From Haplosporangium gracile (taxonomy: Eukaryota > Mortierellomycota > Mortierellomycetes > Mortierellales > Mortierellaceae), in contig JAAAUF010000262.1 in assembly GCA_015499985.1 (NCBI GenBank), forward strand, positions 1 through 44,283: DNA of 44,283 nt, in the 5' to 3' direction. The position numbers and the translations under genes are program-made. The first letter of the stretch is position 1. Each line of letters begins with the position of its first letter. The notes beneath the pieces were generated by a model. That model ran no database searches and was not told where the DNA came from. It saw only the letters and a program-made list of their open reading frames with translations. Below, piece after piece: positions 4,005-44,283 of this stretch.

Positions 4005-4045
4005 GGGGGAGGGTGTATAATTTTAAGAAAACTTTTAAATTATAC
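4005..4045 (-). terminator. 3'-end hairpin plus C-run after rnc
   Basis: On the minus strand GTATAATTT pairs with AAATTATAC and runs into ACCCTCCCCC, starting about 11 nt past the rnc stop. It is the same arrangement as at cox2 and the HEGs. Confidence 0.55.
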
Positions 4046-4055
4046 AAGGCAATAC

Positions 4056-4956
4056 CTAGCCTGCTTTTTTATTCTTTAAAGCAAATTCCAAAAGAACATA
4101 TATTTTTATTAAAATCTCTATAATCTCTGATTGATTTCTTAATGATCTATCCATATTAACTAATAATTTATCCGAGCCCGGAGCCTCCTTTTCTCCGAAA
4201 ATGGGGTGGGCTCCCGGGATAATTTCATTATCAATATTGCCAGAGGCCGAATTGTAAGATATATTATCCCCTATATTTAGTTTAGACGAATCAATACTAT
4301 TAACTAAATTATTTTTAAGTACAGACACATCTCCGTTTAAAGAATATAAATTAGGAAGTATTACATTATTAAAATTACCCAATTTCCCTTTAAATTCTGG
4401 TTTATCTAAAACAGTTAAAGATAAAAACTCCAATAATAATTTATTACCGACCGGCCGACCCGCTACGGTGGCGCGGGCCGGGCTTTCTATTAAAAGAGCC
4501 GCTATAAAAGATTCATATATATCAGCTAATATTTTACTATCTTTTTTAGATAAAAATTTATTATTAAAATCAATATTTTGTTTATCTTTTCCTAATCTTA
4601 AATATTTATAAAGACCTATTTTTAAAGCCCGGGCCCGCCCCGCGGGACCGGCCCTCTATTGAAGTAAGATTTATCCCATTTACTAATGAACTTCTTACTT
4701 CAGTTAATTTACCTTCTGAATAATCAGGAAAACAAGAATAAAGAAATATTGTTACATTATATTGTAATATAGCATCACCTAAATATTCTATAGTGTCATA
4801 AAATTTAGCTGATGAATCTATACTATAGTATGATTTATGTATTAAAGCTGTACTGAAAGTGCTAGTATTCACCATATCATTAATAATTTCAACTATTCTT
4901 TGATTATTTGATTTAACAGAAGTATATGTTCTTATTAAATTTATATTAAAATACAT
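4056..4956 (-). CDS. rnc: Ribonuclease III, mitochondrially encoded, interrupted by two GC clusters
   Basis: RNase III cleaves double-stranded RNA. Residues 36-101 read as the front of its catalytic domain: ALIHKSYYS (compare ALTHRS), IEYLGDAILQ with the metal-binding Glu57 and Asp61, then EGKLTEVRSSLVN. After a 28-nt GC cluster (4626-4653) the match resumes one frame over: KIGLYKYLRLGKD, then LADIYESFIAALL with the second Asp/Glu pair. A second cluster (4447-4484) is in frame. A tail of about 110 aa with no clear double-stranded RNA-binding domain follows to the stop at 4056. All four active-site carboxylates are present, and apart from the GC clusters there is not one stop or frameshift in 900 nt. 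The 28-nt cluster makes the DNA frame broken, so expression would need bypass, frameshifting or RNA removal. Alternatively the gene was disabled recently. The RNase III identity is strong and the functional state is open. Confidence 0.82.
4447..4484. repeat. GC cluster in rnc, in frame (CGCGGGCCGGG family)
   Basis: The cluster adds SPARATVAGRPVG to the protein. A close relative (32119-32153) adds SPARAIIAAQPG to a GIY protein, also in frame. Other members lie at 14555, 16483, 33082 and 37960. Confidence 0.7.
4626..4653. repeat. 28-nt GC cluster in rnc, frame-shifting
   Basis: The cluster is made of GCCCGGGC and CCCGCGGGACCGGCC palindromes. Removing 28 nt restores a continuous RNase III alignment (NLTSIE to LKIGLYKYL). 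28 is not a multiple of three. Confidence 0.7.
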
Positions 4957-5186
4957 ATTTTTGTTATTAATAAATTAAAATTTAATTTACCCTTTACTCC
5001 TCTCTGCATTCCTTTTATTACTAAATGTTTTAAAATAAATTTTAAAACTGCAGAGGGAGGCAGGTAAACAGCTGCCCGGCGCCATATCTGCATGTTTGCA
5101 GTTTTTTATATATTTATAAAAAACACCCGCTTATAAAAAATAAAGAGGGCCCGGGCCTCAGACAATTTTGATATTATCTTAAAACT

Positions 5187-5236: not shown

Positions 5237-5373
5237 GTAGGCCCGTCCCGCGGGAATTTTTTATAAATATATAAAAAACACCCGCTTATAAAATAAAGCG
5301 GGCCGGGACCTATTGAATTATACCATAGGCCGCCGCCCCTCCCCCCCCCCCCGCAAGGTCGCGGCGCCGCTTT

Positions 5374-5490
5374 ATTCATATATTCTGATGACAATAGCAC
5401 TCGAACCATATTTAGCAAATTAAAAATTCTAGGACCGGTCCCCGCGGGCGGGCCCCGGGGTTATTCTACCAATAAAATTATATCCTCATC
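5374..5490 (-). pseudogene. tRNA-Lys copy split by a GC cluster
   Basis: On the minus strand GAGGATATAATTTTATTGG (5' half) and TTTTTAATTTG...GGTTCGAGTGC (anticodon and T arms) match the complete tRNA-Lys at 17663-17733. A palindrome of about 35 nt (CCCCGGGGCCCGCCCGCGGGG) sits between the D and anticodon arms. The acceptor stem also carries a mismatch. Confidence 0.55.
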
Positions 5491-33452: not shown

Positions 33453-33590
33453 TTAATATATTTCAAAAGCTTTGATTATACACGGGATTAATATTGAGAA
33501 CGCAATAACGATAGGAAGCATTTTACTCCAGATCGCACTCATTAATTGATCGTATCTTAATCGTGGGAAACTTGCTCTAATCCAGTAGGC
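33453..33590 (-). pseudogene. nad1: Extra copy of the nad1 3' end (copy 2)
   Basis: It reads AYWIRASFPRLRYDQLMSA then the rest of the Nad1 C-terminus to EIY-stop, continuous across the site where the intron sits in the main gene. The exon-2 part (33453-33569) is intact and same-length. A degenerate WIRASF-like sequence also flanks it upstream (about 33608-33632), next to the end of the GIY gene 33636. Confidence 0.85.
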
Positions 33591-35331: not shown

Positions 35332-35335
35332 TTAA
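35306..35335 (-). terminator. 3'-end hairpin plus C-run at nad1 3' copy 3
   Basis: ATTAATAAAG...TTAAT runs into TTAACACCCCCC. It overlaps the nad1 stop codon on the minus strand. Confidence 0.45.
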
Positions 35336-35466
35336 TATATTTCAAAAGCTTTAATTATACACGGGATTAAGATTGAGAACGCAATTACAATTGGAAGCAT
35401 TTTACTCCAAATAGCTGACATAAGTTGATCATATCGTAATCTTGGAAATGACGCACGTATCCAAGA
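35332..35466 (-). pseudogene. nad1: Extra copy of the nad1 3' end with a frameshift (copy 3)
   Basis: SWIRASFPRLRYDQLMSAIW is followed by the remaining C-terminus. A run of five T (35400-35404) where the other copies have four shifts the frame between WSK and MLPIV. The exon-2 equivalent is 118 nt rather than 117. It may be decay or a sequencing error. Confidence 0.8.
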
Positions 35467-36693: not shown

Positions 36694-36810
36694 TTAATAT
36701 ATTTCAAAAGCTTTAATGATACACGGGATTAAGATTGAGAACGCAATAACGATAGGAAGCATTTTACTCCAAATCGCACTCATTAATTGATCATAACGTA
36801 ATCGTGGGAA
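36694..36810 (-). CDS. nad1: NADH dehydrogenase subunit 1, exon 2
   Basis: FPRLRYDQLMSAIWSKMLPI followed by the last membrane helix and KAFEIY-stop, 39 codons. It joins exon 1 as WIRAS|FPR, as in other Nad1 proteins, giving 321 aa. Confidence 0.95.
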   Translation of the reverse strand, partial: FPRLRYDQLMSAIWSKMLPIVIAFSILIPCIIKAFEIY

Positions 36811-37081
36811 CAGATTTATTATCGATAAAGCGTTTAACTTTATCTTCCAATAGTCACCTATTGGGTTAGACTATGTCATCAACCAATAAGATAATTGGTT
36901 GTGGGGTACTCGTGTCCGGTTTATTGTTGATGTTACTCACCGATTAGTCGTTGAACGTTCTTGATTCATCCCTTAGGGGAACATCGAATCAAGCTCCGCT
37001 GCAAATTGTCTCTTATAAAAGAGAGGTCCTTGCAATTCTCCCCATTTACATTAAAACATTACTGTTTTAAGGTCCCTCCTG
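36811..37081 (-). other. Group I intron in nad1, 271 nt, no ORF
   Basis: The 5' exon ends in T and the intron ends in G. The R element GTTCAACGACTAATCGG and an S-type ATGACATAGTCTAACC are clear, with a P/Q region GAATTGCAAGGACC...AATTTGCAGCGGAGC. Its sequence and length closely match the cox2 intron, so the two are recent sister copies. Confidence 0.88.
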
Positions 37082-37930
37082 AGACGCTCTAATCCAAATG
37101 AAAAGGAATAGTATGAATGAAGTTTTAAATCCAATAGATAAACCTGTGATTAAACCATTTGATTCTACACCTGGTACTAAGTAACCTCCTAAGAATAGAA
37201 TAGAAGATAATGTACTTAAGAACACTATAGCTCCATATTCTGCTAAGAAGAAAAACACAAAAGGGAATGCCGAGTATTCAGTCATAAACCCTGCTGTTAA
37301 TTCTGATTCTGATTCTGGTAAATCAAAAGGTGCTCTATTACTTTCAGCTAATATAGCTATTAAGAACATTAATGCTATAGGGAATAATGGTACAATATAC
37401 CAAATAGCTTTTTGAGATTCTATAATTGCAGTTAAATTAAATGAACCTACAAAAAAAATCACTAATAAGATTATTAACCCAAAAACTACTTCATAACTTA
37501 CTAATTGTGCTGTAGCTCTTAAAGAACCTATAAATGAATATTTATTGTTTGAGGCCCAACCCGCTAATATAATTCCATAAGCTGCCACTGAAGATATAGC
37601 TAAAATTGTTACAATACCTAAAGAAAAATCAGCTATTACTAAACCTTTTCCATACGGTATAAGAGTCCAAACTAATAAACCACAAACTAAAGAAATCATA
37701 GGTGCTAATACAAAAAGTATTTTATCTGTATTTGAAGGTAATACTAATTCTTTAACTAGTAATTTTAAGGCATCTGCAAATGCTTGTAATAACCCATAAT
37801 ACCCTACTTTGTTAGGCCCAATTCTTCTCTGCATACTTCCCATTATTTTACGTTCTGCGATCGTTACATATGCGATAGAACCTAATAAAGGTCCTATTAC
37901 AATTAATGCTTCTAATAATGAATTTATCAT
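37082..37930 (-). CDS. nad1: NADH dehydrogenase subunit 1, exon 1
   Basis: 283 codons of the membrane-arm subunit of complex I next to the quinone site. Conserved blocks: AYVTIAERKIMGSMQRRIGP, GLLQAFADALKLL, AESNRAPFDLPESESELTAG and EYSAFPF. Start MINSLLEALIVIGPLL at 37930. TGG serves for all Trp. Its 5' flank is copied before the GIY gene at 16545. Confidence 0.97.
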
Positions 37931-43575: not shown

Positions 43576-44283
43576 TTCCTTCGTTATTAAGGATGATGAT
43601 AAAATGAATTGTTTTTTATATAATTTATTTTTATCTAAATAATAAGATATATTACGTGTGCTACAATCAAAGAATTTAGCAGCATCTGAACAAGAATTAA
43701 AAATTTTATGCATAATTAGACTCTTGTTGTGGGGCTCCTCAGAATGAGTATAAACAAATACTTTTTTATTTTTTCCTAAAGATATTAAAGCTTTAGTCTT
43801 AGTTGATAAAGTTTTACCTTTATGGATTTTACTAATTAAAGCTTTTACTTCAGCGAGATGCGTTTTACCAAACATTGGACTATTTTTCCCTGTTCTACCA
43901 AACATCGAATTATTTTTACCTTGTGCAGAATTTCGCATTTTTTCTTTAGTCCCTTCTGTATGTTTGTAACCTAAAGAAGACCCTGCAAATCGAAGAATAT
44001 TGTACTCAGGATCAATCTCATTTATCCAGAATTGTTCCCGGTCAATAGCTAATTCTCTATTCTCCACATGCTCTAAAATAGTTAGTGTAAAATTTTCCAA
44101 TCCATATTTTTTTATAGCTTTTACTATTAAAAAAGTTTGAGTATCTAATCTATTTAAATAGTAATCAGAAAAATAGTCAGATAATCTATCAGATAAATTT
44201 ACTCCACTACCTACGTAACAATTTGAATTTATTTTGTTACTGAATAGATAAACCCCCGATTTCCCCTTGTTATCTTTTTTAAT
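43561..44283 (-). CDS. GIY-YIG homing endonuclease, main part (start lies at base 221 across the junction)
   Basis: The frame is open from the window end to the stop at 43561. It has GVYLF and CYVGSG (the GIY and YIG halves; YVG is a variant), the conserved Arg in SDRL, and the catalytic Glu in REQFW. Three to four NUMOD3-type repeats follow (NNSMFGRTGKN, NSPMFGKTH, LISKIHKGK), then a NUMOD1 beta segment and a helix-turn-helix tail (FDCSTRNISYYLDKNK). A TTG inside the domain would give a shorter 179-residue frame, but upstream homology argues against that start. A covarying hairpin overlaps the stop, and a G-run terminator-like signal follows. Confidence 0.75.
   Translation of the reverse strand: MKKDNKGKSGVYLFSNKINSNCYVGSGVNLSDRLSDYFSDYYLNRLDTQTFLIVKAIKKYGLENFTLTILEHVENRELAIDREQFWINEIDPEYNILRFAGSSLGYKHTEGTKEKMRNSAQGKNNSMFGRTGKNSPMFGKTHLAEVKALISKIHKGKTLSTKTKALISLGKNKKVFVYTHSEEPHNKSLIMHKIFNSCSDAAKFFDCSTRNISYYLDKNKLYKKQFILSSSLITKENSRG

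Follow-up and report, generated by a model that had tools for sequence, protein, structure and literature searches.

The DNA analyzed here (the window) comprises 44,283 nucleotides of Haplosporangium gracile (contig JAAAUF010000262.1, positions 1 to 44,283). On its minus strand, between positions 4056 and 4956, it contains a locus, here designated rnc, that belongs to the RNase III superfamily. It is probable, in our judgement, that rnc represents a bacterial-type RNase III family encoded in the mitochondrial DNA (mtDNA) of related fungi, and that the window copy has either been disrupted recently or been assembled with a wrong length of one GC-rich insert (GC cluster). The interest therefore rests with the RNase III family and not with the window allele.

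The sequence motifs which typify RNase III occur in order within the locus. The first part (piece 1) includes HKSY, IEYLGDA and EGKLTEVRSSLVN, while the second (piece 2) includes LADIYESFIAALL and terminates at the stop codon. Based on profile searches, piece 1 (stretch 4609-4956) matches positions 3-45 of PF00636 with 37.3 bits (cut-off 27; E value 5e-9), and piece 2 (stretch 4059-4655) matches positions 48-101 with 20 bits, which is under the cut-off (E value 0.0012). Nearly the whole 102-position domain is therefore present, but divided. The TIGR02191 profile matches piece 1 with 65.5 bits (E value 4.7e-18), under its cut-off of 166.25, and finds nothing in piece 2 at an E value of 0.001. 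Taken together, the scores of the two pieces exclude a chance match, and the identification as RNase III made in a preliminary description, from the letters alone, was confirmed by the PF00636 check. The four metal-binding carboxylates are the E and D of IEYLGDA and the D and E of DIYES, a role which we assign on the presumption that they correspond to those of bacterial RNase III.

The two halves of rnc lie in different frames, and a 28-bp GC cluster interrupts the PF00636 match, which stops at profile position 45 and resumes at position 48 (Table 1). This cluster has a predicted RNA fold of -19.8 kcal/mol and resembles positions 5431-5459 of the window (86.7% over 30 columns). Because it changes the frame within the catalytic domain, the window copy lacks a continuous frame across that domain, and the sequence as assembled encodes no continuous enzyme. 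The active site had been described as complete and the motifs as standing at family spacing. All four carboxylates are indeed present, but they are spread over two frames with no single product, and the order of the motifs holds as it stands whereas their spacing does so only if the 28-bp cluster is ignored.

Table 1. Layout of the rnc locus in the window (positions are those of the window)
Feature	Positions	Strand	Remarks
rnc piece 1	4657..4956	minus	ATG; N-terminal RTYTS motif; first RNase III half (HKSY, IEYLGDA, EGKLTEVRSSLVN)
GC cluster 1	4629..4656	minus	28 bp, not a multiple of 3; divides the RNase III domain and changes the frame
rnc piece 2	4059..4628	minus	Second RNase III half (DIYESFIAAL) and C-terminal helical region; frame differs from piece 1
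rnc stop codon	4058-4056	minus	
GC cluster 2	4447..4482	minus	36 bp, in frame; encodes PARATVAGRPVG-like residues, also present in relative P0001
GC cluster 3	4173..4217	minus	45 bp, in frame in the window copy; the P0001 protein diverges from here
3' signal	4005..4046	minus	33-nt hairpin 4014-4046, then CCCTCCCCC; common to other genes

Relatives with a continuous domain were found. A search with piece 2 (199 amino acids) returned eight proteins at E values up to 0.01 among 384 candidates, the nearest of which, P0001, shares 84% identity across 77% of the query. The profile built from these eight matched 130 proteins at E values up to 1e-12 among 7992 scored. Among the best 120 of the 130, 30 proteins, together with P0007 from the first search, constitute the family of 31 proteins considered here, which bears out the expectation that homologues exist. 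The limit of the family, after P0031, was set by a drop in score, by the onset of proteins bearing a double-stranded RNA-binding domain (dsRBD), and by the trees, which covered 28 of the 31; most of the other 90 listed proteins have a dsRBD. The 31 proteins come from the sources jgi, lgn, ena and src, and no ncbi, nr or uniref entry exists for any of them; a search with nad1 indicated that named fungal mitochondrial proteins do occur in the same database. The PF00636 scores of P0001-P0008 are 62.5-77.7 bits, above the cut-off in all eight, with a single matched stretch in each. The four carboxylates are conserved in all 28 complete members, i.e., with three fragments excluded. Searches of IMG/VR for relatives confirmed none of 12 stretches with P0001 as the query and none of 84 with alignment A4. 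Among the GTDB genomes there were 290 relatives, the best 80 of which are mostly Bacillota by record title; these share 24-44% identity and point to no donor.

The architecture of the family is that of neither class I RNase III, in which a catalytic domain is joined to a dsRBD, nor Dicer/Drosha, in which each chain has two catalytic domains. No dsRBD (PF00035) was found in P0001-P0008 at an E value of 0.1, nor do the precomputed Pfam annotations of P0001-P0031 include one, and TIGR02191 scored 87-117 bits against six members, likewise under its cut-off. The structure predicted for P0006 (316 amino acids) has a mean pLDDT (predicted local distance difference test) of 72.7, with blocks between residues 51 and 200 at 90-98 and low values in the tails. 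Its best match appears to be bacterial RNase III, and the model suggests that the protein adopts the RNase III fold. In a tree of 66 domains (38 bacterial-type, 24 family and four Dicer-like), the family members form one clade (100/99) which is separate from the Dicer-like domains of the same fungus; the latter do not form one group. These domains derive from two loci in the assembly, each with two RNase III domains, which are taken for nuclear Dicers. The sister of the family (99/97) is P0032, a dsRBD-bearing RNase III present in 26 contigs. An earlier quick tree of 90 rows (58 bacterial-type, 28 family and four Dicer-like domains) agrees, with values of 99 and 96. The 66-row tree was made without two of the loci, four family rows that were nearly identical to others, three bacterial rows on long branches and some other bacterial rows, and no alphaproteobacteria were added to either tree on purpose. 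Lateral gain and descent from the original mitochondrial endosymbiont are both candidate origins of the family. The source organism of P0032 could point to a donor.

A structural, non-catalytic protein of the mitoribosome, of the mL44 or mL57 type, could also retain an RNase III-like domain and be encoded in mtDNA. The mL44 profile PF22935 matches all eight of P0001-P0008, but at 13.5-24.1 bits, under its cut-off of 27, and P0031 bears a precomputed PF22935 label. Yeast mL57 reaches no better than an E value of 0.28 against the family profile, a distinct mL44-like gene is found at C252 (though the PF22935 profile itself matched nothing in the assembly), and the catalytic residues are retained in every complete member. 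Identification of rnc as such a ribosomal protein is therefore very improbable.

Composition suggests that the relatives, like the window copy, are mitochondrially encoded. Their FYMINK/GARP ratios are 1.75-6.86, as in AT-rich coding sequence, versus 0.71 and 1.01 in two Dicer-like frames of the same fungus, and peptides resembling translated GC clusters, e.g., DAPLAGA, were read by eye in several of them. In 23 of the 28 members the N-terminus includes a motif similar to R/K-x-Y/F-S-T, which we take to resemble the cleavage site of an import presequence. It could reflect processing by a matrix peptidase or a former stay of the gene in the nucleus. Using a narrower pattern, the R-x-Y-S-T motif is not enriched in the other mtDNA open reading frames (ORFs), with 11 occurrences against a shuffled mean of 7.1 and maximum of 16.

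The state of the window copy can be judged from its coding structure and from its closest relative. Outside the GC clusters there are 100, 48, 76 and 38 stop-free codons, with third-position GC of 0.08, 0.02, 0.17 and 0.16, respectively, whereas roughly 6% of random codons would be stops. The first of these stretches is piece 1 (GC of 0.27/0.33/0.08 at codon positions 1/2/3), and the other three are the cluster-free stretches of piece 2. This preservation argues against an old pseudogene, i.e., loss of the RNase III long ago in the window lineage, which would account for the frame-shifting cluster, for the Ile that replaces the Thr of THKS conserved in all 28 complete relatives, and for the fact that the C-terminus of P0001 is altered as well; we regard it as quite unlikely. 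The window copy differs at two of 39 conserved columns, within the family range of 0-5 and with no outlier among those columns, and the break, if real, is therefore recent. In the P0001 protein the 28-bp cluster is not seen, although the protein has an insert of its own of about 12 residues near that site; cluster 2 is common to both. From the site of cluster 3 onward P0001 differs, and the C-terminus kept by other members is missing, a change which, to judge from the protein, may be another cluster with a shifted frame. The P0001 insert, the common cluster 2 and the altered cluster 3 site thus point to repeated GC-rich insertion into rnc in this lineage.

Two further explanations concern the 28-bp cluster itself. 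GC-rich palindromes are difficult to assemble, and the real length of the cluster might be a multiple of three, in which case rnc would be intact; such an error overlaps with the interpretation that we prefer. The in-frame insertion of P0001 near the same site and the in-frame lengths of clusters 2 and 3 are in keeping with an error of this kind. It is disfavoured by the nad1 frame, which is open across 286 codons, and by the core exons of the second mitochondrial contig, C324, in which no frame error was apparent by eye. We consider it a genuine possibility, albeit somewhat unlikely. Alternatively, the 28 nucleotides might be skipped, or a +1 frameshift might occur, comparable to the bypass elements of some yeast mitochondria, and rnc would be functional. 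The frames flanking the cluster are open and codon-structured, and the conserved columns show little decay, which speaks for bypassing. Against it, the core exons and rnl are free of strong clusters, unlike the mitochondria of Magnusiomyces with their massive bypassing, and clusters 2 and 3, being in frame, would not need it. Counting clusters above a score threshold, there are 42 strong ones over the two contigs. The 901 bp of rnc contain two of them, against an expectation of 0.41 (P 0.065). The core exons (cox2 exon 1, nad1, nad4L, nad6, two stretches of nad5 and two of cob), which total 6.03 kb, contain not a single one (P 0.063), and the same is true of 9.34 kb when rnl is included (P 0.014); this is weak evidence against bypassing. 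Functional expression by this route appears unlikely to us. GC clusters look like a disruptor of rnc.

Several observations weigh against a recently broken member of an mtDNA-encoded enzyme family. The mitochondrial location of the relatives is inferred from the proteins. Since bacterial-type matches span FYMINK/GARP ratios of 0.35-8.0, composition does not exclude AT-rich bacteria as their source, and the presequence-like N-terminal motif resembles what a nuclear gene would have. The fragment P0030 has a Lys in place of the first catalytic Glu. P0001, the closest relative, deviates at five of 42 conserved columns, and together with its altered C-terminus this may mean that the lineage is losing the gene. 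Finally, a duplicate nad5-like stretch (C324 24787-25410) has one cluster in its last 77 nucleotides and another across its end. When it is counted, the probability of two or fewer clusters is 0.41, so that avoidance of core genes by the clusters is at most suggestive.

That the window is fungal mtDNA, as initially described, was upheld. It corresponds to contig C366 of the assembly searched (G000; 37.5 Mb, 1157 contigs) and contains cox2, nad1, tRNAs, group I introns and many ORFs of the GIY-YIG type. The nearest named relatives of nad1 are from Absidia, Gongronella, Cunninghamella, Umbelopsis and Rhizopus (63-64% identity), and three further relatives share 95-99%, both among the best 120 of 5208 matches. 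Contig C324 contains rnl, along with cob, nad4L, nad5 and nad6, which were recognized by eye. Its positions 47488-47542 are identical to window positions 44229-44283 on the opposite strand, an exact 55-bp end overlap. Joined by this overlap, the two contigs give an mtDNA of at least 91,770 bp, which is thus larger than the window; a 26-bp repeat is present at both ends of C366. Profiles for COX1 and ATP6 had no match in any contig of the assembly, and an Rfam scan revealed no RNase P RNA at E values up to 1.

The C-terminus of nad1 is present in three copies with an identical 38-residue reading (window 36697-36810, 35335-35448 and 33456-33569, minus strand), near GIY-YIG ORFs and near a group I intron at 36847-37093. 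These look like the mobile ORFs that duplicate C-termini described for Glomus, Allomyces, Rhizopus and Mortierella (PMC3630166). Matches to GIY-YIG are unusually dense, numbering at least 37, every one of them on C324 or C366. On C324 (L006-L010), stretches of nad6 and of the nad5 3' region, both named by eye, have second copies that are 81% and 84% identical, respectively. L006 145-948 (minus strand) encodes a 268-residue ORF, membrane-protein-like by eye, which has no Pfam match at an E value of 0.1. Upstream of rnc, next to GC-rich stretches, there is a 30-nt inverted repeat (5101-5130 and 5250-5279), the arms of which are 93% complementary and separated by 119 nt.

The preliminary description had also attributed to rnc its own copy of a hairpin and C-run at the 3' end, and this copy was found. 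The hairpin lies directly past the stop codon, and the C-run begins 45 nt beyond the last sense codon. A hairpin and C-run occur within 150 nt at 10 of 46 ORF ends, against 1.6% expected per end, in a crude set of ORFs of at least 190 amino acids read from stop to stop. Every one of these belongs to the window contig, which has 24 ends in the set, whereas C324 has none among its 22, and cox2 has such a signal about 59 nt beyond its stop. The arms of the hairpins found are 8-16 bp, in a scan restricted to 7-16. The signal is consistent with rnc being an ordinary transcription unit and shows no link between the enzyme and hairpins. The proposal of such a link is unsupported: the GC clusters inside the gene break it, and the flanks of rnl form no unusual duplex. 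The candidate processing stem around rnl (duplex energy of the flanks -40.4) was dropped, being equalled or exceeded at 35 of 200 random positions.

The family has a single catalytic domain followed by a helical C-terminal tail, without a dsRBD, and we propose that its members are encoded in the mitochondrial genomes of related fungi. The intact relatives are predicted to act as Mg2+-dependent homodimers, cleaving double-stranded RNA (dsRNA) in the mitochondrial matrix, where structured precursor transcripts and sense/antisense duplexes would be candidate substrates; clearance of dsRNA is a putative role. The window gene, interrupted by its 28-bp cluster, would most likely be a recently disrupted allele or one of misassembled length. 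More speculatively, a bacterial RNase III acquired by lateral transfer and kept in fungal mtDNA might clear both sense/antisense duplexes and the dsRNA of mitoviruses, with the GC clusters of the window lineage breaking the gene or being bypassed, a scenario that we put forward tentatively and think rather doubtful as a whole. Replication of mitoviruses is generally mitochondrial, and those of Gigaspora margarita give rise to many small RNAs, for which the authors favour cytoplasmic RNA interference as the source (PMC7082362).

Among the titles and abstract openings searched, which did not extend to subscription papers, none reports an RNase III encoded in mitochondrial DNA. The MitoCOGs study describes 70 genes that are found in at least one mitochondrial genome yet are nuclear in many eukaryotes, mobile elements being excluded, and states that animal and fungal mtDNAs have nearly the same gene set, the exceptions being RPS3 and VAR1, which occur in some fungi, and TatC, which some animals have (PMC4256733). 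The words 'ribonuclease', 'RNase' and 'rnc' do not occur in its main text (PMC4256733), in agreement with the earlier view that RNase III is not one of the usual mitochondrial genes. If our interpretation is true, a conserved organelle-encoded dsRNA endonuclease would be a new function on the MitoCOGs list, an RNase III lacking a dsRBD would be active in an organelle, and a genetic handle would be available on the fate of dsRNA in fungal mitochondria, including that of mitoviruses. The rnc locus would also illustrate the erosion of a genuine gene by GC clusters.

Of the systems known, class I RNase III of bacteria shares its catalytic domain, its motifs, the four carboxylates and the fold with the family; the two differ in that the family has no dsRBD, falls under the TIGR02191 cut-off and bears a C-terminal helical tail, and in that the window copy is encoded in mtDNA. 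Chloroplast RNC3 and RNC4 are nuclear genes, and Mini-III processes pre-23S rRNA together with ribosomal protein L3. Like Mini-III of Bacillus subtilis, RNC3 and RNC4, likened here by description and not by sequence, have a catalytic domain without a dsRBD, as does the family, the tail of which is longer (PMC8708148). These enzymes participate in rRNA maturation, in plants inside the organelle, and in bacteria 23S rRNA is matured by RNase III and by Mini-III (PMC8708148). A mitochondrial RNase III of Andalucia godoyi has been assigned to the maturation of mitochondrial rRNA, although it belongs to the mitochondrial proteome predicted from a nuclear draft genome, and we read it as not encoded in mtDNA (PMC7050145). 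RIRNC2 and RIRNC3 of Rhizophagus irregularis, again compared by description and not sequence, are bacterial-type class I RNase III enzymes in an early-diverging fungus, but are attributed to a putative cyanobacterial transfer (PMC6399891). The GC clusters themselves, in a comparison that is likewise one of description and not of sequence, recall those of Saccharomyces mtDNA, which are short GC-rich palindromic inserts found also within rps3/VAR1 and rRNA genes (PMC4464245). The Saccharomyces clusters measure 30-80 bp (PMC4464245), whereas those inside rnc measure 28-45 bp and rnl as found here has no cluster.
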